Shown one piece after another: positions 1,976 to 52,137 of a stretch of 64,000 nucleotides of DNA. Both the position numbers and the translations under genes were made by a program. Source of the stretch: Henckelia pumila (Eukaryota > Streptophyta > Magnoliopsida > Lamiales > Gesneriaceae); the NCBI RefSeq assembly GCF_033568475.1, contig NC_133121.1, positions 24,783,374 through 24,847,373 of the forward strand, written 5' to 3'. The notes beneath the pieces are model-generated. The model saw only the letters and a list, made by a program, of their open reading frames with translations. It was not told the origin of the DNA and made no database searches. Each line of letters opens with the position of its first letter. The first letter of the stretch is position 1.

Positions 1976-4210
1976 ACGGGATCTTTTGGAATGTTCGTGG
2001 AATTGGAAATGCAGCAGCTCAAAGACGCATCAAGTTTTTGAAGGTTTCTAACGCTCTTCTTTTTTTAGCTGTTATTGAACCCAAGAGGCAGTTAGATCTA
2101 GAATGGAGCTCTAAAAAATTTGGTATTTCGGAGGTTATCTCTAATTGTAGCAGCAAAATATGGCTTTATTTCTCTCATCAGGTTTCGGTATTTGTGGTGG
2201 TGGATCATGAGCAATTTCTCCACGTCAAATTATCTTCTAGCCTTTTTCCAATTGATATTTATGTTTCTGTTGTCTATGCTAAATGTAATGGAACAGAAAG
2301 GCGGGATCTTTGGGATGGTCTTCTGGATTGTATTCCTCGGGATGGCTGCCCATGGGTTGTTGGCGGAGATTTTAATGTTATCAATGATCCGACAGAACAC
2401 TCTCGTGGTGTTGTCAATTGTCCAGGTGCCATGGCTGAATTTTCTGATTTTATTATTTCAGCAGGGTTGTCTGATGTTGGTTTTGTTGGTGCAAAGTTCA
2501 CTTGGACTAACAACAGTATTTGAAAGTGTTTGGATAGAGTCCTCCTTTCTTCTAATTGGGCGGAGTTCTTTAATTCTTTTAAAGTAGAGCATCTTCATCG
2601 CGGGTCTTCTGATCATTGCCCCCTTCAGATTTCGGCCCCTTTATTTCCCAGGAAGTCTGGGTCTTTTCGATTTCAGGATATCTGGTTTTCTCATCAGGGG
2701 TTTATGAAAACTGTGAGATTGAACTAGAATAATCCTTGCCCTTATATTGGTCTCAGCAGATTGGTCTTTATATTAAAGAGGCTTAAGATTCATCTCAAAT
2801 GGTGGAACAGGGATGTGTTTGGTAATGTTCATGATAATGTTAAGGTTCTTGATCTTAAAGCTTCTCAGGCTCAGGTCGATTTTGATGATAATCCTTCTGA
2901 AGAGAATCGGACAGCCCTCTCCTTGGCCCCTGCTAATCTCGCCATGGGTTTATCAGTGGAGGAGGCTTTCTGTAAGCAAAAAGCTTCTGCCAAATGGATA
3001 ATGGAGGGTGAGAAGAATACTGCTCTTTTTCATAATATGGTTAATCAGCGTCGAGTTCGTAATAAAATTTTTCGAATTTGGGATGATGGTACTGCCCTGG
3101 ATAATCCTTCTCAAATTTCAGAGTTTGGAGTTCGGTTTTTTGAGAGTTTGTTGACTGGTGAATCTTCAGCCCCTTCTGAGCCTAAGTTTGATAACATCCC
3201 GGTGTTGGTTACAAAGGAGGATAATCGTTTTCTATTAGCGCCTTTTTCTGAGAAAGAAATCCATGACTGTGTCCTATAGATTCATCCAGATAGTACTGCT
3301 GGTCCTGATGGGTTTTCAGCTGGGTTTTATAGAAACTGCTGGGAGATTGTGAAATCAGATGTTATTGATGCAGTCAGAGATTTTTGGTCTGGCTCCCCTC
3401 TGCCTAGGAGCATCACGGCTACCTCACTTATTTTAATCCCTAAGATTGGTGAAGCTCAGAGATGGTCTGATTTTAGACCAATTAGCTTATGTAATGTCAG
3501 CAATAAAATCATTACTAAGTCAATTACTCTTCGTCTGAATCAGCTCTTGCCGAAAATCATATCTCCTTCCCAGGGTGGTTTTGTTGCTGGTCGCCTTATA
3601 TCTGATAATATTCTCCTTGCTCAGGAGATGGTTCATCACTTAAATCATCAAACGAGGGGGGAAATATTATGTTGAAATTGGATATGGCTAAAGCTTATGA
3701 TAGGGTTCAGTGGAATTTCTTATATCAGATGCTTAGAGCCTTTGGTTTCTCCGAGGGTTTTTGCCAGGTTATCCTTAATTGTGTTAACAATTGCTGGTTC
3801 TTTTTTATGGTTAATGGGTCTCTGTCGGGCATCTTTCAGTCGAGAAGGGGTCTCAGGCAAGGAGATCCGATTTCTCCTTCTCTCTTCATTATTGCTGCTG
3901 AATATTTGTCTAGGGGCTTGGATAATTTATTTGCTCTGCATAGGTCACTTCATTTCAGTACAGGCTGTCCTTTCAGAATTTCTCATTTGGCGTATGCAGA
4001 TGATTTTATTATTTTTGCGAATGGCTCTATCCCAGGGATCAAGATTCTTCGGAATTTTTTATTTCATTATGAACAGTGTTTCGGTCAGCTCATTAGTAAT
4101 GCAAAGAGTGTGGTACTCACTGCCAGTAATTGTCCTCCTCAGAAGAAGGGGAAGTATCTGGAGATCACTGGCTTTGGACAGGGTTCTCTTCCAATTAAAT
4201 ATTTCGGTGC
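1969..4210 (+). pseudogene. LINE ORF2, endonuclease and reverse transcriptase part
   Basis: Endonuclease that nicks the target plus reverse transcriptase that copies the LINE RNA. From ATG 1969: endonuclease start motif FWNVRGIGN, internal GGDFNVI and terminal SDHCPL (about 2610-2635). The RT region begins near 3300 (STAGPDGFSAGF), with DFRPISLCN, LKLDMAKAYDRV, GLRQGDPISPSLF and the catalytic YADD at about 3990-4002. Damage seen: in-frame stops at about 2521 (TGA where a Trp codon is likely), 2725 (TAG) and 3277 (TAG), and a one-base frameshift in a G run near 3660. The frame runs to codon PIKYFGA, where the Athila element entered. Confidence 0.93.
4206..4210. repeat. Target-site duplication GGTGC, left copy (right copy 15976-15980)
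   Basis: GGTGC directly abuts both outer LTR ends of the Athila element. The LINE codons Phe-Gly-Ala on the left and Ala-Pro-Leu-Phe on the right join in frame across one copy. Confidence 0.95.
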
Positions 4211-5865
4211 TGCTACAACTTAAATTGTAATTCACCCAAGTGTAGGTTGTCTGCAAGTAATATACTCGTGAGTACGAGATCGATCCACGGAGAGGATGCT
4301 GTAAGTTTAATTTTAGCATGATATATTATAGATGGAAATATTATTATGAAACTTCAAATACACAAATTATAAAATTGTCAAGGTTTCAAAGGTTCATTGT
4401 TGGTTTATTTAAGATTGCTTAACAAAAATAAATAAAAGAAACTAAAATAAAAATAAACATAAGAGAATAATTAAATATTTATACAAATATATCATATAAT
4501 ATAGTTCCCACTATATTAATATCAGATTAACTGATATTTAATACATGGTACCCATAATATATATATAAATTCATAAATATAAATTGACAAAAAATTAAAT
4601 GTTAGATCAAATCACAATATTTCATTTAGAACAACCGGCAGAGCCACGCTATTGTCTAAATAAAATATATGACCTTTTTTATGTTAGATGCGGAAAAGTA
4701 AATGTTAGATGCGAGAAAGTAAATGTTAGTTGCGGAAAGGTAAATGTTAGTTGCGAAAAGTAAAAGTTAGTTGCGGAAAGTAAAAGTTAGTTCAAATCAC
4801 AATATATTATTTAGAACAACCGACAGAGTCACGCTATCGTCTAAATAATATATATGACTTTATTATAAATAGATACATATATTTATAGTATATAATTATT
4901 ATAGTATTTATTGTATCATATTTGACAACAAATCAAGGTAACCACATTCAAGGTACCAAGAATTTGATGTAAATAGATAACAACAAATCATCCAAAATTA
5001 TACCTACAAATAAAGATCAATTAGTAAAAATAAAAATAGAAAAGGAAAGAATATAAAAAATATAAACAATCTTAATTGACCAACAATGAAACCTTTTCAC
5101 CTTGACATAAAAAGATTTAGCTTTCCATGAACATGAAACTCAAGAATAAAGATAAAAGAAATTTCATACTTGAACTTGAGAAACTTGCACACTCAAACTT
5201 TTATTCTCACAGACACAATATTTATTTTACAAATGAAGAAGTATCTACACTCTTGCACACTACAAAGCTTATACAACACATCTATTTATAGGCTAAATGA
5301 GAGAAATAGTCCAAGGCTCATTAAATGTGAAATAGTAAAGTTGGTGGGTGCTTGTCTCCTTGAATGTCAATACCATGACCCAACTTTAATTGGCATGTTT
5401 GATGCCTTAGACCACCGATTCAGCCTTTCTTTTCAACATAGAACACGTAGGATATTTTGTGTAGATGTGTTTGGACATATAATTCACCTCTTTTGGGTAA
5501 AAGGTGAAATATTTATGATATTTTTACTACAAGCTGGTCATAATAAAAGTAAATCTGTCTCCATTTTGATGTTTGATTATTTTGATCATCTTAATGAGGT
5601 TTTTGGAATTTCTTGTCTTTTACAAAGTTGAAGATGCCTCTTTTGTAATTCTACAGGATTTGAGATTACTCCAATATGACCTTTGTAGCTGGAGTAATTT
5701 TATTTTTACCAAACCTGCGTAAAACATAAAATATAACATTTTTAGTAAAATATTTAAATATAAACACATAACACAAAAATAATACAACTTCATAATTTTA
5801 ATGAAACTTTAATTTTAAAACACACTTTTAAACATATAAATAATTAAAAATTTTAAGTTTCATCA
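4211..5865 (-). repeat. Athila element 3' LTR (1655 bp)
   Basis: On the element strand it runs TGATGAAACTT ... GTTGTAGCA, a TG...CA LTR. It is nearly identical to 14343-15975. A TATA-like TATAAATAG lies on the - strand at about 5282-5291. A block of about 20-bp tandem repeats (GTTAGWTGCGGAAAGTAAAT-like) fills 4682-4790 and has one more unit than in the other LTR. Confidence 0.95.
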
Positions 5866-5880
5866 CACCCCCAAACCGGC
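5866..5880 (-). other. Polypurine tract of the Athila element
   Basis: The - strand reads CCGGTTTGGGGGTG directly before the 3' LTR start TGATGAAA. This is the expected position for plus-strand priming. Confidence 0.85.
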
Positions 5881-7351
5881 TAATTACTAGTCCCTTAGTA
5901 ATAAAATATCATAAAATATCATAAAATCACAAGTTAGATTTTTATTCTTTAATATATATATTCAAATTTGCAAACTTTTGAATTTTAAAACACACTTGTG
6001 AGGAGATCATATGTTTATTTATAAATCTTATTATCAACTAATATATTAATATATAATTGGATGGGGTATACATATATATTACACACAATATCAAAATATT
6101 AAATATATATAATTTTTTTATATAAATATTTTCTAAAAACTTTGAGAATAATATAATTAAAATGATAATAGAAATCATTTTCATAACATGTATAATATCA
6201 GGAATCTTAATGTAAAAGTCTCAACTCCATATTCTCTCAGGTTAAAGTATTTTATATATAGCTGTTTTTCACTCATGGAGTTGGAAGAAAATTATACGCT
6301 CATTGAAAATGGTTAATATGTAAAGCAGACAATCAAATAACCTAATATTAAAAATAAGATAGGATAATTTACAAAGAATAAACCCATTTTATTTTTGTTT
6401 TTCTCTTCTTATTTTTTTTTTTCTCTTTTTTTTTTCATTTTTTTTATGCACTTGGCTGCGAAGTTGTTTTTACATGGCCAAATACCTCCAATAAACTATA
6501 AATATGTAACACTTTTTTTTTTCTTTTTTCTTTTTTTTCTTTTTTTTTCAAAGTTTATTTATTTATTTATGAGGTAAATCTATTAAGAATTTACCATGAG
6601 AATTATAGTAGAGATATTACATCTTTACAATCAAACTTCAAACAACTTTGCAGCCAATTTTGTATGCACATTTTTTTATATAATTTTTTTTTCAAAATGG
6701 GTTTAATCTAGCAATCAACCATTTTTTAATAATCAATAAAAGCTTATAAGTTATTTTCTCAATTCTCACCTCTCACTCACAAAATTTATGTGAGTATATA
6801 TTGCACTTTTACAAATTAATTCCTTCAATTATACATGTTATTATTCATTCAATCAATATCACTTTAACTATATAATCATAAAAGTTTTAGAAAATATGTT
6901 ATTTGAAAACACACAATTATATATTATTTATAACTTATATCCCATCAATTATATATATTCTATTAAATTGATAAAAAGAAGTGTAAACAAACATATATAC
7001 AAAAGACTTCATTTTCTTAGTAGTTTGCAATTTAAATATATATTCGGAATATTAAAATCTAATCTATTGTGATAATATGATAAATAAAAACTAATGCGTG
7101 TCAGAAGTTTTTGATTCCTTACTCTGCCATTGAAAAAGAAAAATAAATATTATTATAGCAATACTTTTTTTTTTTAAAAAAAAATTTTAATAATTTTTTT
7201 TTTTTTAGAGATAAATCCTCCCCCAAACCTGAATATGACATTGTTTTTAATTTTTTTTTTAAAGAAAAATAAAGAGTACATGATGAAAGAGATATCACCT
7301 GGAATTATTGAAGATGAGGAACAAACACAAACCATTTCATGACATGTTGAA
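5881..7351. other. Non-coding 3' region of the Athila element with a foldback
   Basis: No credible ORF. It contains long T/A runs (6407-6440, 6514-6550, 7167-7212, 7249-7264). Paired inverted segments suggest a foldback centred near 6540: TGGCTGCGAAGTTGTTTTT at 6452-6471 against AACAACTTTGCAGCCA at 6642-6657, and AAACCCATTTT at 6381-6391 against AAAATGGGTTT at 6695-6705. A purine-rich tract on the - strand near 7220 (GTTTGGGGGAGG) resembles a second polypurine tract. Confidence 0.5.
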
Positions 7352-7989
7352 TCAATGATCCAGTTTTCTTTTCTTACTGGTTGGTTGAGACCAATTGATC
7401 TTTGTTATAGCTAAATCAGGTTGATGAACAAAAGCTTGGAGATCATCAATTAATTGGTCTTCATTCGAAGCAGAGATGAGCATCCTTCGTGAATTTTCTG
7501 AAATGAAATTTTGTTCCATAGCTACATCAAGAAAAGTCAACAAACCATCATAATAGTTATTGATATTTAACAAGCCAACAGGTTTATTATGGATATTAAG
7601 TTGTGCCCAAGAAACAACATGAAAAATTTCTTCTAAAGTACCAAAACCACCAGGTAAGGCAATAAAAGCATCAGAATTTTCTATCATTTTAGTTATTCTC
7701 TCGTACATTGATGAAACTTTCAACTCTTCCCCAACCGTAACACCTGTAATATTTCCTTCAGCTAAAGCTGTAGGAATAATACCCAAAACCTGACTACCTC
7801 CAAGATGAGCTGCTGTTGAAATAGATCCCATTAACCCAATATTGCCTCCTCCGTAAACCAAGTGAATTTTTCTCTCTGCTAACTTTTTTCCAAGATTAAT
7901 TGCTGCATCAAAAAAATTTCATTCTTTCCAGTATTAGAACCACAAAAGACACAAATATTTTTCAATTTTTGTGAAGAAGATCCTGTCAT
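7352..7989 (-). pseudogene. LOG-like: LOG-type cytokinin riboside 5'-monophosphate phosphoribohydrolase, intronless copy with one frameshift
   Basis: LOG enzymes release active cytokinin base from its riboside monophosphate in the cytosol and nucleus. ATG at 7989-7987, MTGSSSQKLKNICVFCGS, then the family glycine segment VYGGGNIGLMGS and the nucleotide-binding motif PGGFGTLEE (about 7640-7666), with the conserved Arg in MYERITKM upstream and the final Glu pair present. The C-terminus is a short basic tail ending KKRKLDH, giving about 212 residues, the normal family size. The frame breaks once at a run of seven A on the + strand near 7910-7916: an eighth base would keep the family wording. No introns interrupt it, whereas plant LOG genes known to me have several. 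It sits inside an LTR element between integrase and 3' LTR. A true deletion and a sequencing homopolymer error are both possible. Confidence 0.9.
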
Positions 7990-8175
7990 GTTTTTTTTAT
8001 TTTCAAAAATATAGAGAGAGTTGAGTGATTTTATAAGGAAAACAAGGAATAAGACAGAAATAGGAATACAGATGTGAACAAAATGATGAAAATAGTAAAA
8101 AACAATAATATATAATAATAACATGCATGCGTATAAACAGTGATGTGATTGTGGCTCACAGTGTTCCTTCAATAT
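7990..8175 (-). other. Leader between the two cargo ORFs
   Basis: The 186 bases before the LOG start are AT-rich. On the - strand they contain CTTATAAAATCACTC followed by CTCTCTCTATAT, which resembles a TATA box and a pyrimidine-rich leader. This could be the native 5' flank or 5' UTR of the LOG donor. If a true promoter was captured, capture from DNA rather than mRNA would be implied, in conflict with the lack of introns. Confidence 0.35.
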
Positions 8176-8730
8176 TTATGAGTCGAGGGTTGGCTTACCA
8201 TCCAATTTTCTTATAAATTGGCAAATAGGGTCTTTTTTAGTCAGATTCCCAAGACCATTACCATGACGCTGCGCTTGGAATAGTTTCCATAATCGGAGAA
8301 GTTGAACTTGAACATCTCCACTAGAATGCGTCTCAAGAGTCAATGAGATATCATCTAATGACTCTTTACTCAGCCCATTCTTAATGAAATCAATTTTATC
8401 TTCTCTATTTGTGGAAACATATCCCAAAGATCTGCATTGTCTATTACAAGTTCATCTGGCACAATTATGACAAACATCTAACCTTTTAGCCCTTCTTTTC
8501 TTCGCATAGGTACTTTTACCTAACCCAGACATATTTTGAACAAGTAAGAATTTTGGAACTTCACTACCTAATCGAACCTTGGCTTCAATTATAAGACGAA
8601 TATCTTCCGGGATTCCTTTTTGCATAAGCATTCTCAATCTTTCACATCTGCCTTCATAAATCATTCTCAGAACTTTTTAAGAAACAGATGGAAAATATTT
8701 ACCAAGTTTTTTGATAGCTTCATCCATAAT
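8176..8730 (-). pseudogene. Basic cysteine-rich protein resembling the nucleic-acid-binding protein of flexi-like plant RNA viruses; two in-frame stops
   Basis: One reading frame of about 180 codons from ATG near 8728 to TAA at 8176-8178, broken by TAA near 8680 and TGA near 8452. Seen: a helical, charged N-terminal part, then GKSTYAKKRRAKRL (about 8490-8530) followed at once by a cysteine cluster C-x2-C-x4-C-x3-C spanning the TGA, then a REDKIDFIKNG segment and a roughly 80-residue tail. Known: the small nucleic-acid-binding proteins of carla- and vitivirus-type Betaflexiviridae have this layout of a serine/tyrosine-plus-basic run next to clustered cysteines, then a short hydrophobic segment, and several suppress RNA silencing. 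Inferred: an endogenized virus-derived ORF. The spacing of the cysteines differs from the classical carlavirus form, so a host zinc-binding protein is the alternative. Confidence 0.55.
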
Positions 8731-8835
8731 ATATATTTATATATATATATTCAATTATTTTGGGAAATTGAAATAAAACCGACTGAAAGTAGTCACGGAG
8801 TACCGTTATCCGCCACTTAACCGGGAAGTGAACTC

Positions 8836-8862
8836 AATTCTGCAAAAATAAAAAAAAAATAT
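8836..8862 (-). promoter_or_regulatory. Possible 3' splice site before the cargo ORFs
   Basis: The - strand reads a pyrimidine run (T10-A-T5) followed by GCAG and AATTGAG, a good match to a plant acceptor site. It lies about 30 bases past the integrase stop and 110 bases before the first cargo ATG. Envelope-like ORFs at this position in retroelements can be expressed from spliced RNA, so this may serve the cargo. No donor was identified. Confidence 0.4.
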
Positions 8863-8871
8863 AAGTAACAA

Positions 8872-10227
8872 TTAAGTTGGATCATATAAAGGCATAAACT
8901 CTTCATTAAGAACTTCATTTTCTATAAATGGTTTAAGTCTTTGCCCATTAACTTTAAATACATTATTATTTTTAGGATTTTTAACATCAACAGCACCATG
9001 AGGATAGACAAATTTAATAATAAATGGTCCAGACCATCGCGATCTAAGTTTTCCTGGAAACAAATGCAAGCGAGAATTATAAAGTAAAACTTTTTGTCCG
9101 ATTTCAAAAGATTTTCTCATAATATTTTTATCATGAAATGCTTTTGTTTTATCTTTATAAATCTTTGCATTTTCATATGCATCATTTCTTAATTCTTCTA
9201 GTTCATTTAATTGCAATTTTCTTAATTTAGATGCATCATCTAAATTAGTATTAAATGCTTTAATTGCCCAATAAGCTTTATGTTCAATTTCAATAGGTAG
9301 ATGACAATGCTTTCCAAAAACTAATCTATATGGTGACATCCCCAATGATGTTTTAAATGCAGTTCTATATGCCTATAATGCATCACTTAATCTTAAAGAC
9401 CAATCTTTTCGATTTGGATTGACTGTTTTTTCCAAAATTTGTTTTATTTCTTATTTGCAAGTTCAACCTTACCATTCGTTTGAGGGTGATATGTAGTAGA
9501 AACTTTATGTGTAATACCATATTTTCTTAACAACGAAGAAAATGATTTATTTATAAAATGACTTCCCCCATCACTGATTATAGCTCTAGGTATTCCAAAT
9601 CGACTAAAAATATTTTCTTTCAAAAATTTTATCACAACTTTATGATCATTACTTCTACATGCAATTGCTTCAATCCATTTTGAAACATAATCGACAACCA
9701 CTAAAATATAAGTGAATCCAAAAGATAATGGAAATGGACCCATAAAATCTATTCCCCAACTGTCAAATATTTCAATAATCATGATTGGATTTAAAGGCAT
9801 CATGTTTCGTTTTGAAATTGAACCCATTTTCTGACAATTTTCACAAGATTTTCAAAATGAATGTGTATCTTTGAATAAAGAAGGCCAATAAAATCCACAT
9901 TGAAAGATTTTTGCAGCTGTTTTCTTTGACGAAAATTGACCTCCACGTGCCTCAGAATGACAAAATTTAATGACACTACTTACCTCATTGTCGGGTATGC
10001 ATCGTCGAAAAATTTGATCAGGATAATACTTAAACAAATAAGGATCATCCCAATAAAATTGTTTGACCTCTTTCAAGAATTTATTTTTATCTTGTGAACT
10101 CCAATGAGAAGGCATTTTATTTGTCACAAGAAAATTTACAATATTAGCAAACCAAGGCATAGTAGTAGCATAAAATAGTTGATCATCCGGAAAATTTTCA
10201 TTTATTGGCATTTCATTTTGAGATGAT
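8872..10227 (-). pseudogene. Athila integrase
   Basis: Inserts the element cDNA into the genome. N-terminal zinc-binding region at about 9850-9990, where the second His of the HHCC motif reads Gln (GGQFSSKKT). The core has [10 protein letters not shown], the second acidic residue in ISDGGSHF and the Glu region in [13 protein letters not shown]. The C-terminal part ends at 8872 with no chromodomain. Breaks: in-frame TGA near 9850, frameshift near 9444, and TAG near 9375 where the family has Trp in [11 protein letters not shown]. The start is the frameshift near 10220-10270 that separates it from RNase H. Confidence 0.92.
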
Positions 10228-10923
10228 TCAGAAATTATTCTTGATAAATGATCGGCTACTACATTTTCTTTTTCTTTTTTTATCTTTTATTACAAGATCA
10301 AATTCTTGTAACAAAAAAATCCATCTTATTAATCTCGGCTTAGCATCTTGTTTATTTGATAAATATTTTATGGCAGAATGATCAGTATAAACAATAGTAG
10401 TAGAACCAATTAAATAGGATCGAAATTTATCTAATGCAAACACTACTGAAAGTAATTCTTTTTCAGTTGTTGAATAATTGATTTGAGCACTATTTAAGGT
10501 TCTACTTGCATAATAGATCACATAAGGTTTACCTTCTTTTCTTTGTCCTAACACGGCTCCTACAGCATAATCACTTGCATCACACATTAATTCAAATGGT
10601 AAAGACCAATCAGGAGGTTGTAAAATAGGTGATGTAGTTAAAAGATTAATTATCTTTTTAAAAGCAGTTTCACATTCTTGAGTCCATTCAAATTGCGCAT
10701 CTTTTGTTAAAAGATTTGAAATTGGTTTCGATATTATGCTAAAATTTTTTATAAATCTTCTATAAAATCCCGCATGACCCAAAAATGATCGAATTTCTTT
10801 GATCGTGTTTGGTGATGGTAAATTAGCAATAACATCAACCTTAGCTTTATCAACTTCAATTCCTTTTTCAGATATGACATGCCCTAACACAATTCCGGAT
10901 TTAACCATGTAGTGACATTTTTC
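10228..10923 (-). pseudogene. Athila RNase H region
   Basis: Degrades the RNA of the RNA:DNA hybrid. Starts in frame after a TGA at about 10921-10923 that replaces a Trp codon at the end of the RT. Motifs: [63 protein letters not shown] and [10 protein letters not shown], which supply the D-E-D catalytic set. A frameshift near 10265 ends the frame. Confidence 0.92.
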
Positions 10924-11783
10924 TCAATTTAAAACAAGATTTTTTTCTTCACATCTTTTTAAAACTTCTTCCAAATTTTTAAGACAGTTTTCAAATGAGT
11001 TTCCAAAAACAGTTATATCATCCATAAAAACTTCCACAAATTCTTCAATCATGTCACTAAAAATACTTAGCATGCATCTTTGAAAAGTAGCCGGGGCATT
11101 ACATAAACCAAATGGCATTCTTTTAAAAGCAAAAGTTCCGAACGAACAAGTGAAAGTAGTTTTTTCTTGATCTTCTAATGATATTGGTATTTGATAATAC
11201 CCCGAATACCCATCAAGAAAACAATAATAAGGATTACCTGCCACTTTCTCTAAAATTTGATCTAAAAATGATAACGGAAAGTGATCTTTTCTAGTTGCAT
11301 CATTTAATTTTCTATAATCAATGCACATACGCCAACTAGATAGAATCCTAGCTTGTAATAATTCTCCCTTTTCATTTTTTATAACAGTGATGCCTGATTT
11401 TTTTGGTACTACTTGTGTTGGACTTACCCATTTACTATCCGAGATTGGATAAATAATTCCGGCATCTAATAGTTTTAAAACTTCATTTTTAACAACTTCT
11501 TTCATGTGTGGATTTAATCTTCTTTGTGGTTGTTGATATGTTTTAGCATTTTCTTCCAAGTGAATTCTATGTGTGCAGATTAAAGGATTTATACCTTTTA
11601 TATCTTGCAAAGTCCATCCAATTGCATTTTTGTGTTTTTTAAGTAGTGTTATTAAATCTTCTTCTTGTTTTGGTAAGAGGGTAGAAGATATTACAATAGG
11701 ATATGTTTGATTTTCACCAAGAAAAGCATATTTTAGTTCTATTGGTAAGGGTTTTAATTCAAGTTTTGGATGATCATTTTCTT
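10924..11783 (-). pseudogene. Athila reverse transcriptase
   Basis: Copies element RNA into DNA. The clear frame starts at about 11780 with a segment matching the linker after protease and runs to the TGA at 10921. Motifs: RRLNPHMKEVV, GIIYPISDSKWVSPTQVVPKK, CIDYRKLNDATRKDHFPL, FLDGYSGYYQIPI, PFGLCNAPATFQRCM and the catalytic FMDDITVFG (about 10999-11025). It is separated from the protease frame by a frameshift near 11800. The RT catalytic core itself is undamaged. Confidence 0.93.
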
Positions 11784-12540
11784 TTACTTCTTCAAGTTCA
11801 TTAATTTAAAAACATTTTTTGAATCAAAACTTTCCACTAAACAAACTTCAGATTGTTGATTTAAGTTTTCTTGGTGTATATTTTCTTCCACGATTGTTTC
11901 TATTGCATTATCATCTTCATATTCATTAATACTTGGTTGTTTACATAAACTGAACACATTAAGTTCTAAAGTCATATTTCCAAAAGACAATTTCATTATT
12001 CCATTTCGACAATTAATTAAAGCATTTGAAGTTGCTAGAAATGGACGTCCCAATATTACTGGAATTTTGTTATGTACTTCTATTGGTTGTGTATCCAAGA
12101 CAATAAAATCCACGGGATATATGAATTTATCAACTTGAACTAATACATCTTCTACAATACCTCTAGGTATTTTGATTGACCTATCGGCTAGTAAAAGAGT
12201 AACAGATGTAGGTTTTAAATCTCCCAACTTAAGCTTTTCATAAACTGAATAAGGAATTAAATTCACACTTGCTCCCAAATCTAACAAAGCTTTTTTAATT
12301 TTATTTTTTCCAATAATACATGAAATTGTTGGACAACCGGGATCTTTATATTTCAAGGTAGAATTATTTTGAATAATAGAGCTTACTTGCTCCGTTAAGA
12401 ATGCTTTCTTCTTTACATGCAATTGTCTTTTCACAGTACATAAATCTTTTAAAAACTTTGCATAAGAAGGCACTTGTTTAATAGCATCTAATAATGGAAT
12501 ATTTATTTTTACTTGTTTAAAAACTTCATAAATATCAGAA
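11784..12540 (-). pseudogene. Athila aspartic protease
   Basis: Cuts the gag-pol polyprotein. Athila-type active-site wording LLDLGASVNLIPYSVYEKL (family form DLGAS rather than DTGA) at about 12240-12300, then LLADRSIKIPRGIVEDVLVQVD and VILGRPFLATSNA, the second conserved block. Separated from gag by a frameshift in an A run (+ strand T8) near 12545, and from RT by a frameshift near 11800. Confidence 0.9.
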
Positions 12541-14253
<1,713 letters not shown>

Positions 14254-14318
14254 AAAATTAAAAACAACATACTATTTACATAATAACATAAATAACAAAA
14301 TTAAACTTAATTTATACC

Positions 14319-14336
14319 TCCCCGGCAACGGCGCCA
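14319..14336 (-). other. Primer-binding site, tRNA-Asp type
   Basis: The - strand reads TGGCGCCGTTGCCGGGGA, complementary to the 3' end of plant tRNA-Asp(GTC). It lies six bases inside the 5' LTR, as in Athila elements. Confidence 0.93.
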
Positions 14337-14342
14337 AAAACT

Positions 14343-15975
14343 TGCTACAATTTAAATTGTAATTCACCCAAGTGTAGGTTGTCTGCAAGTAATATACTCG
14401 TGAGTACGAGATCGATCCACGAAGAGGATGCTGTAAGTTTAATTTTAGCATGATATATTATAGATGGAAATATTATTATGAAACTTCAAATACACAAATT
14501 ATAAAATTGTCAAGGTTTCAAAGGTTCATTGTTGGTTTATTTAAGATTGCTTAACAAAAATAAATAAAAGAAACTAAAATAAAAATAAACATAAGAGAAT
14601 AATTAAATATTTATATAAATATATCATATAATATAGTTCCCACTATATTAATATCAGATTAACCGATATTTAATACATGGTACTCATAATATATATATAA
14701 ATTCATAAATATAAATTGACATAAAATTAAATGTTAGATCAAATCACAATATTTTATTTAGAACAACCGGCAGAGCCACGCTATTGTCTAAATAAAATAT
14801 ATGATCTTTTTTTATGTTAGATGCGGAAAAGTAAATGTTAGATGCGAGAAAGTAAATGTTAGTTGCGGAAAGGTAAATGTTAGTTGCGGAAAGTAAAAGT
14901 TAGTTCAAATCACAATATATTATTTAGAACAACCGACAGAGTCACGCTATCGTCTAAATAATATATGACTTTATTATAAATAGATACATATATTTATAGT
15001 ATATAATTATTGTAGTATTTAGTGTATCATATTTGACAACAAATCAAGGTAACCACATTCAAGGTACCAAGCATTTGATGTAAATAGATAACAACAAATC
15101 ATCCAAAATTATACCTACAAATAAAGATCAATTAGTAAAAATAAAAATAGAAAAGGAAAGAATATACAAATATAAACAATCTTACTTGACCAACAATGAA
15201 ACTTTTTCACTTTGACATAAAAAGATTTAGCTTTCCATGAACATGAAACTAAAGAATAAAGATAAAAGAAATTTCATACTTGAACTTGAGAAACTTGCAC
15301 ACTCAAACTTTTATTCTCACACACACAATATTTATTTTACAAATGAAGAATTCTCTACACTCTTGCACACTACAAAGCTTATACAACACATCTATTTATA
15401 GTCTAAATGAGAAAAAGAGTCCAAGGCTCAATAAATGTGAAATAGTAAAGTTGGTGGGTGCTTGTCTCCTTGAATGTCAATACCATGACCCAACTTTAAT
15501 TGGCATGTTTGATGTCTTATACCACCGATTCAGCCTTTCTTTTCAACATAGAACATGTAGGATATTTTGTGTCGATGTGTTTGGACATATAATTCACCTC
15601 TTTTGGGTAAAAGGTGAAATAGTTATGATATTTTTACTACAAGCTGGTCATAATAAAAGTAAATCTGTCTCCATTTTGATGTTTGATTATTTTGATCATC
15701 TTAATGAGGTTTTTGGAATTTCTTGTCTTCTACAAAGTTGAAGATGCCTCTTTTGTAATTCTACAGGATTTGAGATTACTCTAATATGACCTTTGTAGCT
15801 TGAGTAATTTTATTTTTACCAAACCTGCGCAAAACATAAAATACAACATTTTTAGTAAAATATTTAAATATAAACACATAACACAAAAATAATACAACTT
15901 CATAATTTTAATGAAACTTTAATTTTAAAACACACTTTTAAACATATAAATAATTACAAATTTTAAGTTTCATCA
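14343..15975 (-). repeat. Athila element 5' LTR (1633 bp)
   Basis: Partner of 4211-5865, with the same TG...CA ends. Differences are about 30-35 substitutions by hand count, plus one missing tandem unit in the 14815-14905 repeat block and small indels. Directly followed by target copy GGTGC at 15976-15980. Confidence 0.95.
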
Positions 15976-16349
15976 GGTGCTCCTCTCTTTATAGGCCCGA
16001 AGAAGAGTTCTTACTTTTCGCATATTATTGTTAATGCTACTAAAAAATTGCAAGGATGGGATACACAACTTTTGTCCTTTGGTAGTAGATTGGTGCTTAT
16101 CAAAAGTGTTCTTTGCTCCATGCCTATATACCTTTTCCAAGTTATGCAGCCTCCGGGAACTATTTTGCAGAGATTTGAGATGTTATGTGCCAAATTTTTA
16201 TGGGGAGCTAAGGAGGGGAATAGAAAATTTCATTGGGTTGCTTGGAAGAATATTTGTCTTCCAGTCTCTGAAGGGGGTTTAAGTATTCGGAGACTAAAGG
16301 ACTCCTTGACGGCCTTTTCTTTTAAACTATGGTTTCGGTTCAGGTCTGT
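15976..16349 (+). pseudogene. LINE ORF2, segment after the RT core
   Basis: Continues ORF2 from 4210: GAPLFIGPKKSSYFSHIIV, then LQGWDTQLLSFGSRLVLIKS, FLWGAKEGNRKFHWVAW and EGGLSIRRLKD, the usual conserved block between RT and the zinc-binding region of plant LINEs. It stops where the solo LTR entered after KLWFRFRSV. Confidence 0.93.
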
Positions 16350-41245: not shown

Positions 41246-44200
41246 TCAGTGAAATAAGTAAGGAAATCTCTGTCTCATGTCTTCTTCAACTTTCCATGTC
41301 GCTTCTTCAACTCTGTGCCGACTCCATTGAATCATCACCAATGGAATGGTCTTCGTTCGGAGTTGCTTTTCTTTCCTATCCAGAATCTGAATCGGTTGTT
41401 CAAAATAACTCAGAGTGTCATCGAGTTCAGCTTCATCAACGTGGATAATATGCGATACATCAGGCTGATACTTCCTCAACATCGAAACATGAAAAACATC
41501 ATGAATATCGGACAAGGATGGAGGAAGAGCGAGTCGATAAGCAAGATTGCCTATCTTCTCGAGAATCTCATACGGCCCAATAAATCGTGGAGACAACTTT
41601 CCTTGCTTGCCAAATCTAACTGTGCCCCTGAATGGTGAAATCTTCAAGAACACTCTATCTCCCTGTTCAAAATATAATGGTCGTCGTCGAATATTCGCAT
41701 ATCTGGTTTGTCTATGCTGCGCTGTTCTCATTCTCTGCTGAATCAACTTCACCTTCTTAGTCATCTGTCTGATCATATCCGGTCCCAACTCAGGCACCTC
41801 CGACACATCATCCCAGTACAATGGCGATCGACACTTCTTCCCATACAACGCTTCAAATGGAGCCATCTTTATACTTGTCTGATAACTATTGTTATAAGAG
41901 AACTCCACAAGTGGTATAGAATCTTGCCATGTAACACCAAAATCAAGTATCACAGCTCTAAGCATATCCTCAAGAGTCTGAATAGTTCGTTCAGATTGAC
42001 CGTCAGTTTGAGGATGATAAGCAGTACTCAAATGTAAGCGCGTACCTAGAGCTTCCTGTAGGCTATGCCAAAAGTGCGAAGTAAATTTAGGATCTCGATC
42101 AGATTCAATCGACTTTGGCACACCGTGCAATCTTACCACTTCTCGAATATAGAGATCTGCCATTTGATCATGACGATAAGTCATTCGATAATAAATGAAG
42201 CACGCAGATTTCGTCAATCTGTCTATGATCACCCAAATAGCATCACATCCTCGGGATGCTCGTGGCAATTTTGTCACAAAGTCCATAGAAATGTGATCCC
42301 ATTTCCATTCAGGAATAGATAGACTCTGTAATAAGCCATCTGGTTTCTTTCTCTCAGCCTTCACCTGTTGGCAGTTCAAGCATTTTGATACAAATTCAGT
42401 CACATCAGACTTCATTTGTTTCCACCAGTACTGATTTTTCAAATCATTGTACATTTTCCTGCCTCCAGGGTGAATACTGAATCGACTACAATGAGCTTCC
42501 TTCAAAATATTCTGTCTCAAATCTGAAAGATCGGGAACAACAATTCGGTTATTCACATACAGAATATCATCATCACTAACATTGTATTCAGACTGATGTC
42601 CTGATCTGATCATTTCAATCGATTTCTGAACACTGAAGTCTGATTTCTGTGCGTCTTTAATTTGAATCAACAATTCAGGCTCAGCACTGATAGCATATAC
42701 TCTCATTGGTCTCCTATCTGTATCAAATATATATCCAAAAATATAGCAATCTTCAATCAAATTCGATACACCTATAGTAGACAAGGATAAAGCACATACC
42801 TTCCTACTTAGGGCATCTGCTGCTGCATTCGATTTCCCTGGATAATATTTGATTTCACAATCAAAATCTTTCAATAAATCGAGCCATCTTCTTTGTCTCG
42901 TGTTTAGATCAGATTGTGAAAACAGATACTTCAAACTCTTGTGATCAGAAAAGATTTCAAACTTTTCACCATATAAATAATGTCTCCAAATTTTTAATGC
43001 AAAGACGATGCTGCCAATTCAAGATCATGAATTGGATATCGGACTTCATGTGGTTTCAGTTGTCGAGAGGCATAAGCGACAACATGTCCTTTCTGCATTA
43101 AAACACATCCCAGACCTCGATGAGAAGCATCGCAATAAACAACAAAATCACCAGTACCTGAAGGGATTGTCAAGACTGGTGATGTAGTCAATCTTTTCTT
43201 AAACTCAAGAAAACTTGTTTCACATGCTTCAGACCACACAAACGGTGCATTCTTCTGTGTAAGCTGAGTAATAGGTTTTGCAATAGATGAGAAATCTCGG
43301 ATGAATCGACGATAATATCCTGCCAAGCCCATAAAACTTCTGGTTTCAGGCACAGATGTCGGTCGCTGCCAACTAATCACAGCTTCAACTTTACTTGGAT
43401 CAACTAAAATACCATCTCCTGATATAATATGACCCAGAAAAACCACCTGTTTCAACCAAAACTCACATTTGGATAGCTTAGCATACAGTTTTTCTTCCCT
43501 CAACGTCTTCAAAACTGTTCTCAAGTGATTAGCATGATCACACAAATTCTTAGAGTATATCAAAATATCATCGATAAATATGATCACGAAATCATCTAGA
43601 TATTTTTGAAATACTCTATTCATCAATCCCATAAAAACTGCTGGTGCATTCGTTAGACCAACAGGCATGACTATAAATTCGTAATGGCCATGCCTGGTTC
43701 TAAATGCAGTCTTAGGGATATCCTCATCTCTCACCCTCAATGGATGATAACCGGATTGTAAATCAATCTTCGAATATATTGACGAACCCTGCAATTGATC
43801 AAACAAATCATCGATACGAGGTAAAGGATAGCGATTCTTTACCGTTGCTTTGTTCAATTGTCGGTAGTCAATACACAGTCTCATTGATCCGTCTTTCTTT
43901 CTCACAAATAATACCGGAGCTACCCAGGGCGAAACACTTGTTCTGATATATCCCTTGGCCAACAATTTTTCAAGTTGGTCCTTCAACTCTTTCAACTCTA
44001 TCGGTGCCATACGATAAGGTGCTTTTGATATCGGTTGTGTACCTGGCATCAATTCTATGCTAAAATCTACCTCTCGAAACGGAGGCAATCCCGGTATCTC
44101 GTCAGGGAAAACATCAGCGAATTCACTAACCACTGGCAAGTCAGCCAATTTCGGGCTAGTCTTCAGTACATCTACTGCATAGATAAGAAATCCTTCTCCC

Positions 44201-44256
44201 CCTTTCTGTAATAAGTCAGTCATAGAAAGAACAGATGTCAAAGGAATTCTGGCTCG
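41246..44256 (-). pseudogene. Tekay-like RT, RNase H, integrase and chromodomain
   Basis: From 44256: [58 protein letters not shown] and catalytic [11 protein letters not shown]; RNase H with [17 protein letters not shown] one-base loss near 43005 breaks the frame after DLELAA, and the next frame resumes with [20 protein letters not shown]. Integrase: zinc motif with [11 protein letters not shown] and [13 protein letters not shown], core DDE in [17 protein letters not shown] and [14 protein letters not shown], then [19 protein letters not shown]. The C-terminus ([20 protein letters not shown], then [17 protein letters not shown]) is a chromodomain, which in this lineage guides insertion to marked chromatin. 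The end is TGA at 41246. Confidence 0.94.
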
Positions 44257-44261
44257 TGATC
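44257..44261. repeat. Target-site duplication TGATC, left copy (right copy 52133-52137)
   Basis: TGATC abuts both LTR ends of the nested Athila element. Removing it joins the protease part YGKGS to the RT-side part [10 protein letters not shown] of the Tekay-like polyprotein. Confidence 0.93.
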
Positions 44262-45646
44262 TGATAAGTGTATTTTATACACTTAATTTATATATGATTT
44301 TAATTGTTAAATATTTGTTTCGAGCAGATTTATGCCTGGATTTTGTTGTTTTTGTGTTTGTAGGAGAGTATGGAGAATTATTTGGAAAAGAGAATAAAAA
44401 TGATATTTGTGAGAAAATGGAGAAAGAAATTAAAAGGAGAAAAGAAAAGAATAAAAGAAAGGAAGAGAAAAGAAAGAAGAAAATAACGTACAGAAGACTT
44501 AATGGGCTTTGTAAATGGGCCAATTGGTTGGCGCTAAAACTTAGCGCTTAAGGGAAAGCTATCGCGCAAGTGTGTGAAGCGAGAGAATTGAAGCCAGAGC
44601 CCTATGCGCGCCCTCCTGGGTTTTTAAGTGCCCGCGCATCACTATCAGTGTTTTAATCGAAAAGGAAACTTTCTATTTTCTTGGGCTTTTGAGTACGCTA
44701 TAAAAAGAGATTTTTTTAGTCTGAGATGGGAAGGGCTGCCACAATATTTTACACGCACATCAGATATTGATCGTGAAGATTTCTGGGAAGAAATCTGGAG
44801 CTTTAATCTGATGAACAAAGACGGAGTTTGAAAGACCGGACACGGCGTCGACGACGGATTTGTTTCTTTTATCTTTATTTATTTAATTCTGAATATATTT
44901 TTGGATTTTTGAACATGTTTTGTTTTATTCAGAATTTTATTATGAACTAAATTTTTAGAGTCTAGAGGTCAGATGGAACCTGGTTGAGACGCTTTCATGA
45001 ATTTTTGATTTTATTGAATTGAGTTTTGTTTCTAGATTAATTGTTTTTTTATAGAATTGATTGTCTTTTCAATTATCTGATCAATAATTGATTTGTTATA
45101 TTTATTTGAAATCATTGCTTGGGAGAGGGGATTTTGAATAGGACATTAGAAACTACACTGTTAATTATTTATACAGCTCGGGAGAGTGTATGATTTTAAC
45201 AGAGCTTTTAAAAAGAACATTATTTTGTGATAGATCACTGCGATAAATTCTTAATAGGAATATTGGAATTGAATTGTAGTTGATAAACATTATTTGTTGC
45301 TCGGGAGAGGGAAATAATAAACTTAAGTGTTCTTGGCTATTAATTGACTGAAATTCATGAAGATTAATTATTTAGTATTGACTGTTGTTGAAACCAGGTG
45401 AAATCTATACCTCTAGACTATTTTTCTCTGATTGATATTATCTGAAAGTTGTGTGTGTGCTATAAAATCTTCTTGATTATTTTTATTTATTTCAAAATTC
45501 TCAAATTTTGATTTTCTAGATAAAGTTTGGACTATTCTAATTACAAGTACTAAATATTTTTATTTTACTCCCTGTGGGATCGATATCTGATTTAATCACT
45601 ATATTAAAACTTTACACTCGTACGCTTGCGAGGAATTTTCATAACA
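44262..45646 (+). repeat. Athila-2 5' LTR
   Basis: TGATAAGTGTATTTTATACAC ... TTTTCATAACA. Contains a 70-base polypurine stretch (44416-44486), GCGC-rich words (44530-44640) and a TATA box GCTATAAAAAGAG at 44698. The U5 end carries CCCTGTGGGATCGATATCTG and TACGCTTGCGAGG. Confidence 0.95.
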
Positions 45647-45652
45647 AGTTTT

Positions 45653-45670
45653 TGGCGCCGTTGCCGTGGA
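45653..45670 (+). other. Primer-binding site, tRNA-Asp type
   Basis: TGGCGCCGTTGCCGTGGA, one mismatch from the tRNA-Asp complement, six bases after the LTR. Confidence 0.92.
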
Positions 45671-45777
45671 GTAATTTTGATTATTTTTTTTAGTTTTGTT
45701 ACCAATTAGTCTAGATTTTAATTTAGAGTTTTTTTATTTTATTTTGAAGTTACTAATTAAATTCTTCTTAATTTTAA

Positions 45778-47162
45778 TTGCAGTTTATGCGACGATCTCA
45801 AAGTGCGAATTCTCTACTTTTTGATCCGGAGATCGAACGAACTGCACGTGCTTTGAGAAGAGCGAGAAGAGAAGAAATTAATAACATGGCTGAAGAGAAT
45901 GTGAATCAAGCTCCCCTGGTGCCTAGCAGAGATCACTTCAGGCCGACGATCCAGGCTCACTACTCTGGAATAGCTCGAGGAACAAAAAATGCCAACAATT
46001 TTGAGCTAAAGCCGGCCTTGATCAACATGGTTCAATCGAACCAATTTAATGGGAGTGCCACAGCTGATCCTCACTTGCATCTCAGGACCTTTTTAGAAAT
46101 TACTGATACGGTAAAATTTAACGGTGTTCCTAAGGATAGTATTCGTTTACGCTTTTTTCCATTTTTTCTCAGGGATCAAGCCAGAAGTTGGTTGCAATCA
46201 CTGCTGCTTGGAAGCATCACTACTTGGGAGGGGATGGCAGAAAAATTTTTTGCTAAATATTTTCCACCTGCCAAGTCCACCCAGTTGAAGATCGAGATCA
46301 GCACTTTCAGGAAGATGGATTCTGAACAGCTCTACGAGGCGTGGGAAAGGTACAAAGAATTACTTAGACGTTGTCCTAACCACAATTTTGCAGATTGGGA
46401 ACAGATCGAGTGGTTTTACAATGGACTGAATGCGCCTACGAGGATGAACGTGGATTCTGCTTCTGGAGGAACTATTTTTGCAAAGGACCCCGCTCAAGCC
46501 TACGATATGCTGGAACAGATGACGATCAATAGTTTCAATGGCCATCTGAGCGTATGGGAGTCAAGAAGCCAGCTGGAGTGTATGCAGTGGATCCTCTCAC
46601 ATCCATCACTGCTCAATTATCTGCACTGACTACGCAGGTAGCTTCTTTGAATAAGATTCATGTTGCAGATTCAATTGGAGTTGAGGGATCACATACACCA
46701 GAGCAAGTTAATTATATCAATCCTAATGGCTACCGAGGTTATGGAGCTTACAGAGGTAATCCGGTTCCTAATGCTTATCACCCTAGTTTGAGGAATAATG
46801 AAATTTTTTCATATGCTAACAATACTAATAAGGGTGATGGTAAGCTGTCTTTGGAGGACGTTGTTAGTACCTTTGTGCAGGAATCAGGTAAGAGGATGGC
46901 GAGAACTGAGTCTCGCCTCGACGGCTTGGAGACGCACATGGCCAACATGGGCGCGGTGTTGCAATCCATGGAGACTAGCATCGGGCAGTTGGCGAATGCA
47001 TTGAAGGATAATAATAGAGGCCAGTTTCCAAGCAACACTGAGGTGAATCCCAAGGAGCAATGCAATGCTATCACGTTGAGAAGTGAGAAGCAAGTGGATA
47101 GAGAAGAAAGCCATCCATCTAAAAGGACTGAGAAAGCTGTAGTTGAAGAGAAGGAAGTCTAG
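45778..47162 (+). pseudogene. Athila-2 gag, frameshifted
   Basis: Frame from 45778 (MRRSQSANSLLFDPEIERTA) with capsid wording FELKPALINMVQSNQFNGS, PHLHLRTFLEI, RLRFFPFFLRDQARSWLQSL and ERYKELLRRCPNHNF. It shifts frame near 46560 into GVYAVDPLTSITAQLSAL, then SMETSIGQLANALKDNNRGQ, EQCNAITLRSEKQV and a TAG at 47160-47162 before the protease part. A CCHC knuckle is not evident. Confidence 0.9.
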
Positions 47163-47975
47163 AGAAAGGAGCCTGAACTGGAGCCGAAACCGATGTACAA
47201 GCCTCCACTTTCCTACCCGCAGAGGTTCAAGAAAAAAGCTTTAGATGAGCAGTTCTCCGAATTCTTGGAGATTTTCAAAAAGATTCATATCAACATCCCC
47301 TTTGCTGAAGCTTTGGAGCAAATGACGAACTATGCGAAGTTCATCAAGGAGATGATGTCCAAGAAGAGGAGGCTGCTAGAAAACGAGGTAGTCAATCTGA
47401 CGGAAGAGTGCAGTGCGGTGCTACAAAAGAAGATGCCACAGAAACTTAAGGATCCAGGGAGTTTTACTATTCCTTGTTCTATTAGTTCTTCTTATTTTAA
47501 TAATGCACTTTGTGATTTAGGGGCCAGTATTAATTTAATGTCATTATCTATTTACAGGGCCTTGGAGTTGGGAGACATGAAATCGACTAAGATTTCATTG
47601 CAATTGGCGGATAGAAGCATTAAATATCCACTAGGAATTGTTGTAGATTTTCTAGTCAAGGTTGATAAATTTATCTTCCTTGAAGCGGATCATGGTGCTC
47701 CGCTGATTTTTGGACGTCCATTTTTGGCTACTGCTGATGCCAAAATAGATGTCAAGAAGGGTGCGTTTTCGATGGGTGTGGAAGGCGAGAGAGTGATTTT
47801 CAACTTATTCACGAAAGCACCCAATCCACCCATTGAAGAATTGTGTTTAATCGAGCCGGTTGTAAAGTTGGAAGCGCCAAATTTATCATCAAAGAAGGCC
47901 AAGAAAAAAAGAGAAAAATTTAAAAGGCGGTTCGTGGAATTTATTTGGCGAGTAAAAGAAAAAGGGAAGCCTTAA
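47163..47975 (+). CDS. Athila-2 aspartic protease, end of the coding region
   Basis: Continues in the gag frame after the TAG at 47160. Protease block: ALCDLGASINLMSLSIYRAL, ISLQLADRSIKYPLGIV and LIFGRPFLATADAKI, the same DLGAS-type active site as the 11.8-12.5 kb element. It ends with a lysine-rich tail (KKAKKKREKFKRRF to EKGKP) and TAA 47973-47975. No pol domains follow. The lysine-rich tail may derive from the far end of a longer ancestor through a pol deletion. Confidence 0.88.
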   Translation, partial: RKEPELEPKPMYKPPLSYPQRFKKKALDEQFSEFLEIFKKIHINIPFAEALEQMTNYAKFIKEMMSKKRRLLENEVVNLTEECSAVLQKKMPQKLKDPGSFTIPCSISSSYFNNALCDLGASINLMSLSIYRALELGDMKSTKISLQLADRSIKYPLGIVVDFLVKVDKFIFLEADHGAPLIFGRPFLATADAKIDVKKGAFSMGVEGERVIFNLFTKAPNPPIEELCLIEPVVKLEAPNLSSKKAKKKREKFKRRFVEFIWRVKEKGKP

Positions 47976-48159
47976 TACCGGTGAAAGTCGGGCTGACGAC
48001 TTTAAATCAAGCGCTACTTGGGAGGCAACCCAAGCATTTTATTTTATTTGCTTTTATTTTCAGTTTAATTAATTTTTGTTATTTAAAAGTTTTTTTTTAT
48101 TTTTTATATTTTTCAATTTTTTAAGTTTAATTTTTCTTAATTTTCAATTTTTTTCAGGC

Positions 48160-48850
48160 TCCAAAAATTCTCAATACCGAGCAAGCGGCGCGCCCGCGCC
48201 TTACCTGGGCGAAATTGGCGATGATTTGCGAATTAAAGGCGCGCCCGCGTCATTATCTCGAGCGCCCGCGCCTCCTCACCGCATGAAGCTTAGCCATTAG
48301 CGCATCTTCTTTGCGCAATCGCGCATCTGCACCGCGCGGCCACAAAGCGCAAACGCGCAACTTAAAGTGCGCAAGACCAGCGCAAACAAGACACCAACAA
48401 CGCAGAATCTAGCACTATCACGCATCATCACCGAAGCGCCAACGATTCCCATCTGCGCCTCTTCTAAGCGCAATCGCGCTAACCAAGCCATCATCTGCGC
48501 TGCCATAGGCGCTATCGCGCCACTTCAGCCCCAACAGCACAGCAAATCTCCCTATCAGCAACTTTTCTGCGCAACGTCAAGAGCAAACACGCATCGCCAT
48601 TTCCAGCAGCTCTTCCATGCGATCGAGATTGCATCATAAGCTTTCCCTTACCATGCGCTAACAACCTCTTGAAGGGCGCCAACCATCCTCAGCAGCGCTT
48701 AACAGTGCGCTAACGCGCATGAATCTCCCCATTTGCGCATCACAAGACATCCAAGGCGTAACAGTGTTCCTGCACCGCGCAAGAATTCCAGCTGCTACTA
48801 TCCATGCGCGAACGAGCTCTACAACATCAGCAACTCCGTGAGCCAACGAT
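48160..48850. repeat. GCGC-word-rich region in Athila-2
   Basis: An unusually CpG-rich stretch in an AT-rich element, with dozens of GCGC, GCGCAT and CGCGCC words at irregular spacing. Not a simple tandem repeat. The open frames across it (for example 48367-48639) have no recognizable motif. Confidence 0.85.
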
Positions 48851-49301
48851 CTCCTAGCTGATGCAGTTTAATGAGCAATCACGCCTCTCCATCAATTCTC
48901 ATGGCTCATCTATGCGCACTCCCTCTTTGTCCCTATACATTACGAGTTCTATTTTGCTTGCTTTGAGCTTTACGTTTGTGTTTTAATTGTGTGCATGTCT
49001 TATTTTTCAGGTTAATATGGACGTTCATGTTGTGTTTTATCTATCTATGCACCATTTTCCCCTGATGGTTTATTTGGTGGAGTATGAGAAGTCGAAAAAA
49101 AAATTTCTATCCATGGAGATCGAGATGATGACATCGAGTACTGATGCTCGGTGTCGAAGGTACGCGTCCCGTGTCCCTTGTTATTTGTATTGTTTTAATC
49201 ATTAGGGACAATGATTATATTAAGTTTGGGGGGATGAATCATTTTGTGCAATGATTTAGTTGATTAGTTGAGTTTTATCGTGTGCTTCATAGATAAAATG
49301 T

Positions 49302-49339
49302 TGAGTTGAGTTGAGTTGAGTTGAGTTGAGTTGAGTTGA
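49302..49339 (+). repeat. (GAGTT)n pentanucleotide repeat
   Basis: About seven units of TTGAG/GAGTT in a row. Confidence 0.95.
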
Positions 49340-50732: not shown

Positions 50733-50748
50733 TAAGTTTGGGGGTATT
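50733..50748 (+). other. Polypurine tract of Athila-2
   Basis: TAAGTTTGGGGGTATT directly before the 3' LTR start TGATAAGTG. Confidence 0.85.
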
Positions 50749-52132: not shown

Positions 52133-52137
52133 TGATC

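Follow-up and report, generated by a model that had tools for sequence, protein, structure and literature searches.

An Athila-like retrotransposon family with a nucleic-acid-binding protein gene of plant-virus type and a LOG gene behind the integrase

In Athila4 and Calypso elements, the slot between the integrase and the 3′ LTR is occupied by an env-like ORF. Two Athila-like plant gypsy elements with a LOGL4-like ORF were reportedly described by Steinbauerova et al. in 2011; the element described here is Athila-like too. In the text section of a survey that deals with such elements, LTR elements from two Citrus species and, with a filter off, from P. trichocarpa are recorded as having a LOG (YgdH) ORF, and the work of Steinbauerova et al. 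2011 is cited (PMC9289625). These are plant gypsy elements with a LOG-family ORF, as in our case, but that section names no viral nucleic-acid-binding protein (NABP), whereas here LOG follows a NABP gene under selection, and the two modules recombine independently. In its part on Phalaenopsis, the same survey presents another additional ORF, of a kind that flexiviruses also have, kept in a plant gypsy family, an AlkB-type RNA demethylase (PMC9289625); it is a different enzyme, recorded there in two Phalaenopsis species only, while named matches of our NABP come from four plant genera. The env-like ORFs of Athila and Bagy2 share the slot between integrase and 3′ LTR, and the passage on the post-pol ORF of barley Bagy2 reports its expression by splicing (PMC7264820); env-like products are transmembrane proteins, whereas the present product is of the cysteine-finger, nucleic-acid-binding type. 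Finally, extra ORFs of Tekay elements in sunflower, maize and sorghum, some of them DRBM-like, have been proposed to modulate RNA silencing, as is suggested here for another lineage and another fold, and the relevant part of that work reports no viral profile match (PMC11728184). Among the matches listed in a search of open-licence PMC full text, judged by title and start of the abstract, there was no NABP gene in plant retrotransposons and no NABP-LOG pair. The preliminary description of our locus had known of no described element with such a pair, and these listings brought up none, while the LOG component in plant LTR elements had already been published, as the survey section mentioned above attests (PMC9289625).

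The window, that is, the whole stretch of 64,000 nucleotides of Henckelia pumila DNA that was analysed, contains the following features (position, strand, description):

4206-4210: target site duplication (TSD) GGTGC, low-coordinate copy
4211-15975, minus: complete gypsy-type, Athila-like LTR element, 11,765 bp
4211-5865, minus: 3′ LTR
7352-7989, minus: intronless LOG gene (cytokinin riboside 5′-monophosphate phosphoribohydrolase; Pfam and PDB match), frameshift near 7890-7918
7997-8745, minus: segment (NABP and spacer to the LOG start) exchanged in one subfamily, edges approximate (identity by bin, BLAST)
8176-8727, minus: NABP-like gene (flexivirus nucleic-acid-binding protein type; Pfam), stops at 8679-8677 and 8454-8452
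8840-8860, minus: pyrimidine tract and GCAG, splice-acceptor-like, just behind the integrase stop
8872-10211, minus: integrase in open pieces (rve core 70.5 bits), stop at 8874-8872
10228-11610, minus: two open pieces with reverse transcriptase and RNase H (RVT_1 91.2 bits, RT_RNaseH 126 bits)
11784-12473, minus: aspartic protease region (Asp_protease_2 26.8 bits)
12541-14253, minus: gag frames (Retrotrans_gag 33.8 bits in 12544-13725)
14343-15975, minus: 5′ LTR; next to it in the element's reading direction comes the primer-binding-site-like stretch TGGCGCCGTTGCCGGGGA
15976-15980: TSD GGTGC, high-coordinate copy

The Pfam order gag, protease, reverse transcriptase, RNase H and integrase, enclosed by LTRs and a 5-bp TSD, fits an Athila-lineage Ty3/gypsy element with a fragmented pol; the H2C2 zinc finger of the integrase scored 23.2 bits, below the cut-off of 25.5, and the C-terminal part of the integrase had no Pfam match. 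We take the stretch TGGCGCCGTTGCCGGGGA to be typical of Athila/Tat, and in the frames scanned, which cover part of the gaps in the broken pol, no second RNase H of the Tat/Ogre type was seen. Both the likeness of the primer site and the absence of a second RNase H from these frames would be in keeping with Athila. The two LTRs differ at 34 of 1656 aligned columns (Jukes-Cantor K 0.0208), which at usual plant rates corresponds to about 0.8-1.5 million years. When the flanks are joined with one TSD retained, the reconstructed empty site holds a 332-codon open frame spanning the junction, and the left flank also codes for a reverse transcriptase (RVT_1 71.7 bits), so that the insertion is into an older LINE, and both additional ORFs belong to the mobile unit and moved with it. 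The preliminary description had placed both genes on the coding strand of an Athila-like element, inside the mobile unit, and the TSD and the empty site bear this out.

It had also called the cysteine-rich ORF virus-like. Viral Pfam models do match it, making it a NABP of the plant-virus type: the piece at 8452-8676 (minus) reached 27.2 bits with Carla_C4 (PF01623, cut-off 20.9) and narrowly missed the cut-off of Viral_NABP (PF05515, 22.9 bits against 23.0), while the Pfam scan of the second piece on its own (8179-8451, minus) gave no convincing match. A naturally open copy scored above both cut-offs (PF01623 23.1, PF05515 25.9), and all 12 rows of the NABP profile alignment (A2) matched Viral_NABP (best 6.3e-9) as well as Carla_C4 (best 2.2e-7), the matches covering the basic and finger part in the one member displayed. 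With the NABPs of carlaviruses, mandariviruses and trichoviruses (PF01623, PF05515), the element protein thus shares the profile match, a cysteine finger behind a basic stretch of KKRRAK type, and the last position in the coding region. It differs in its length (about 182-183 aa; 183 aa in natural open copies), in a conserved C-terminal part of its own, and presumably in the finger, whose spacing, C-x2-C-x4-C-x3-C in 96 of 119 new relatives among the matches listed, would not be the carlavirus one. Furthermore, a flexivirus NABP is an RNA-virus gene beside the coat protein, whereas the element NABP is encoded in a retrotransposon and has no adjoining coat or movement genes. The predicted structure is a weak model (mean pLDDT 59.6), and of the 22 matches from the viral fold search with it none reached E <= 0.001, the best having E 0.39 and a TM-score of 0.12. 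The two top-ranked, non-significant structures came from Fig latent virus 1 (an RNA silencing suppressor) and Cherry mottle leaf virus (a 15 kDa protein); we take both viruses to be flexiviruses and the two proteins to be of the NABP class; ranks 1, 2 and 6 were all plant-virus proteins of this class, but at TM-scores of 0.12-0.17 the fold search does not count as structural support. The NABP profile found no relative in the IMG/VR scan, and the NABP piece found there a single weak match of 24 residues (L031).

The identity of the other gene is straightforward, as the piece at 7355-7918 (minus) matches Lysine_decarbox with 133 bits and Arabidopsis At2g37210 (PDB 2a33) with E 2.9e-55, and the PGGxGTxxE motif, which together with the domain marks LOG, is present in this piece and in 110 of the 120 LOG matches listed. 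In natural open copies LOG is one uninterrupted frame of 212 aa. Cellular LOG genes have introns, and one sequence pattern used for an intron comparison gave 0 matches to host cellular LOG genes; most simply, the intronless element LOG was taken up from a cellular mRNA. In a tree rooted on just two certain cellular outgroup rows, the LOG matches lie far from Arabidopsis LOG3/LOG8 (drawn branch length 0.38 to either side of the root, support 100/100). Near the C-terminus, 95 of the 120 LOG matches listed (P0001-P0120) have a basic stretch and a LxLxL tail, e.g. KKRKLDLTLRL, which resembles a nuclear signal combined with an EAR-type repressor motif; the family of the host genome ends in KKRKLDH. 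The two ORFs of the preliminary description are therefore both present, yet the window copy is not intact, since its NABP holds in-frame stops and its LOG is split over two frames.

The host genome assembly searched comprises 884.66 Mb in 133 contigs. A NABP query of 541 nt gave at least 419 first-look candidates, and 40 of 40 scored were at least 97% identical; PF01623 gave at least 382 candidates, and 150 of 150 scored lay above the cut-off, the lowest barely, while among 14 control genomes there was a match in 1 and none above the cut-off. The host genome accordingly has NABP over the Pfam cut-off at no fewer than 150 places, 86 of them in frames of at least 180 aa and 15 with a stop inside the match. 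Among the 30 best-matching loci (L001-L030, window included; not a random sample), LOG was present in all and the integrase was found in 29; with thresholds of at least 180 codons for NABP and at least 210 codons for LOG, NABP was open in 25 and LOG in 21. Open frames at this rate are not in themselves proof of selection, as many would stay open by chance at a divergence of about 1-2%. In the divergent loci L032-L061, LOG was found in 24 of 30, the integrase in 24 of 30 and all three genes within about 1.5 kb in 18 of 30. LTRs examined in 10 other copies revealed five perfect TSDs and two with one mismatch, each of its own sequence, with K of 0.009-0.023 for six LTR pairs; in three of the 10, one LTR was absent from the stretch examined. 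TSDs of their own indicate separate transpositions that carried the NABP-LOG pair. The pair thus recurs in other copies of the family, where the preliminary description would have taken a family without both ORFs as evidence against itself.

Some copies show additional rearrangements. L049 (G000:C3:91899649) and L050 (C3:135791487), 99.7% identical, each contain two NABP-LOG units in head-to-head orientation, which form an inverted repeat of 2.9 kb whose arms are 88.6% identical, so that a transcript would be a long hairpin. Three NABP copies follow in a row about 21.46 kb apart (G000:C72:3250748, 3272211 and 3293662), and two more lie 10.26 kb apart (G000:C1:137199848 and 137210109); this spacing suggests local tandem duplication of element-bearing stretches.

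Outside the host genome, the 74-aa NABP piece found 58 relatives and the 12-row profile 951 (both at E <= 10). All 120 of the latter that are listed carry PF01623, their commonest length is 182 aa (47 of 119), and those listed with a species name belong to Populus, Xanthoceras, Acer and Rhamnella. One relative, L082 (DAIEQH010000041.1), is a contig of 3330 bp in which a 496-aa open frame with RNase H and integrase of plant-element type is directly followed by an open NABP 67% identical to the host-genome family, with no LOG in the remaining 986 nt behind it. The record is filed under a Candidatus Nomurabacteria MAG, and by its content looks like plant contamination of that bacterial MAG. The order integrase, NABP, LOG, which the preliminary description had proposed to seek elsewhere, is found in full in host copies, while the record from another plant has its first two members without LOG. 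The absence of LOG from L082, and within about 1.5 kb in 6 of the 30 divergent loci, means that LOG is dispensable. In the LOG search, 7771 of 8000 scored candidates matched, and among the 120 matches listed Reevesia, Diplodiscus, Populus and Paulownia are each represented by several distinct loci, whose number and likeness suggest that they are element copies. Equal contig sizes are suggestive of NABP and LOG on one contig for P0004/P0220 (8723), P0039/P0188 (4511) and P0017/P0297 (1524); P0071/P0251 also share a contig size, which at 585 is too small for both genes.

Selection was assessed at two depths. Between L082 and five host-genome copies, the dN/dS of NABP was 0.31-0.33 in 5 of 5 comparisons (dS 0.71-1.26), and that of the integrase 0.23-0.25 in 4 of 4 (dS 0.93-1.05). 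Between two subfamilies of the host genome, A and B, median dN/dS was 0.37 for NABP (0.30-0.55; 88 pairs), 0.27 for LOG (0.11-0.77; 48 pairs) and 0.34 for the integrase (0.14-0.73; 56 pairs), where the first 8 open A copies were paired with 11 (NABP), 6 (LOG) and 7 (integrase) open copies of B, to the exclusion of other A copies and of B rows lacking an open frame, and the pairs are not independent. These ratios indicate that NABP is under purifying selection and is kept much like the integrase. For LOG the evidence of selection is weaker, coming from one within-genome comparison with a dS of 0.076 and a range of 0.11-0.77.

The same two subfamilies differ in a way that sets NABP apart from its neighbours. 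Median dS between A and B is 1.14 for NABP, 0.18 for the integrase and 0.08 for LOG, and identity in 60-nt bins falls to 38-82% inside approximately 8745-7990, being mostly 91-100% on either side, in 5 of 5 subfamily-B copies chosen; exceptions outside the segment are bin 9000 (78-83% in 4 of 5), the end bin 9540 (69%) and places near 7140 and 6960 (83-88% in some). The high edge lies within 8700-8760 according to the bins, and the low edge at 7997 according to BLAST with copy L043, eight bases ahead of the LOG start. In the NABP tree, B groups with P0297, from another source, and with a third type, L049, whose row is only 30% filled, apart from A (support 100/100), while in the LOG tree A and B stand together (support 100/100) and P0017 elsewhere. 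The high dS of NABP, the sharp edges and the discordant trees imply that a block reaching from shortly before the NABP start as far as the LOG start was replaced. One subfamily thus has an old, divergent version of the NABP segment alone, and template switching between co-packaged RNAs would be the simplest way to such an exchange. LOG itself may have been lost from L039, L048 and L058, where the NABP stop is followed after about 15 nt by the last LOG codon and onward sequence at 84.6-88.3% identity, a junction that fits such a loss. The two cargo genes of the preliminary description are therefore not a fixed unit, since NABP is also found without LOG and is swapped independently of it.

Taken as a whole, we consider it probable that an Athila-like family possesses an accessory module behind the integrase, made up of a long-resident, selected NABP and, in part of the family, LOG, which may serve counter-defence and cytokinin activation by the mechanism outlined here. 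What the analysis establishes is the position of the module, its mobility with the element, its many copies and frequent open frames, the purifying selection on NABP and the modular exchange. In the working model, the LTR promoter would give rise to a genomic RNA, and splicing to the conserved acceptor-like site behind the integrase stop would yield a subgenomic mRNA whose first AUG is that of NABP. All 30 loci L001-L030, the window locus among them, have the pyrimidine tract and GCAG behind the integrase stop, and in the window there is no ATG between the acceptor-like site and the NABP start. Among 16 divergent loci with hand-set coordinates, the site is present in 13 and lost in 3; automatic anchoring reached one divergent locus, L061, which has no tract. 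By homology, NABP could bind RNA or DNA and blunt the RNA silencing of the element, or could work in the nucleus; the cysteine-rich proteins of carlaviruses are stated, in the relevant part of the source, to act commonly as silencing suppressors (PMC12172455). LOG, again judged by its homologs, would free active cytokinin in the cell that transcribes the element, and local cytokinin could keep that cell dividing or meristematic, with better odds of new insertions entering the germ line. Such a model connects a little-understood plant retrotransposon ORF behind the integrase with well-studied viral silencing suppressors, and so opens the function of this ORF to direct tests. If LOG is active, the mobile element would be exploiting a growth hormone to spread itself.

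Alternatively, both genes could have been transduced by chance and be copied on because they are harmless, without a function for the element. The window copy is broken in both genes, LOG is missing in 6 of the 30 divergent loci, and plant LTR elements often capture genes according to the part of the literature that deals with this, in which a high share of the genes captured in sorghum is nevertheless called functional (PMC7264820). This explanation seems unlikely to us and is already weakened for NABP, whose dN/dS of about 0.3 over dS 0.7-1.3 is close to that of the integrase, whose length of 182 aa recurs in 47 of 119 matches listed from other sources, and whose segment was swapped with the neighbours unchanged. 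Less probable still is that LOG acts as a shield, its likeness to an essential host gene limiting silencing, or as an RNA decoy, hairpin copies yielding siRNAs. The inverted repeat of L049/L050 would suit a decoy, but 21 of 30 loci have kept an open LOG protein frame, and the distance of LOG from Arabidopsis LOG3/LOG8, compared here in place of the host LOG, leaves little siRNA cross-talk with such host genes to be expected. A misassembly, or a one-off late insertion into the window copy, had nothing in its favour and was rejected with near certainty, given at least 150 NABP places, own TSDs in other copies, and integrase followed by NABP in the record of another plant.

The origin of NABP is a separate matter, for which two readings deserve attention. 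NABP could be native to Athila-like elements as their post-integrase ORF, the flexiviruses having taken it from plants or the likeness being partly convergent, in which case there would be no viral cargo. Its relatives number in the hundreds, and those with a species name among the 120 listed are all plants; the profile found no IMG/VR relative, no structural match was significant, and the finger spacing would differ from the carlavirus one. Against this, each of the 12 members is matched by both viral Pfam models, and the two best-ranked structures, though non-significant, come from Fig latent virus 1 and Cherry mottle leaf virus. We regard a native NABP as a real possibility, if short of an even chance. 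With similar reserve, we tentatively put forward a broader version of the reading preferred above, an endogenous retroelement lineage with a virus-grade module, in which NABP has been selected across several eudicot families and exchanged as a cassette between lineages, and LOG added in some; it would be the plant equivalent of retroviruses equipped with counter-defence genes and a growth-promoting host gene. The likeness between the element and viral proteins suggests that genes have passed between RNA viruses and retrotransposons, in one direction or the other.

Besides the module, the window holds several other features. A match to snoR71 (Rfam RF00097) lies antisense to the element gag at 13571-13681 (plus), with 45.5 bits against a gathering score of 40, and a long ATT repeat at 14055-14160 gives an asparagine run in the gag frame. 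Further gypsy-type pieces, comprising reverse transcriptase, integrase with a Tf2-1-like SH3 domain, gag and protease, are scattered over both strands at 41246-53008.
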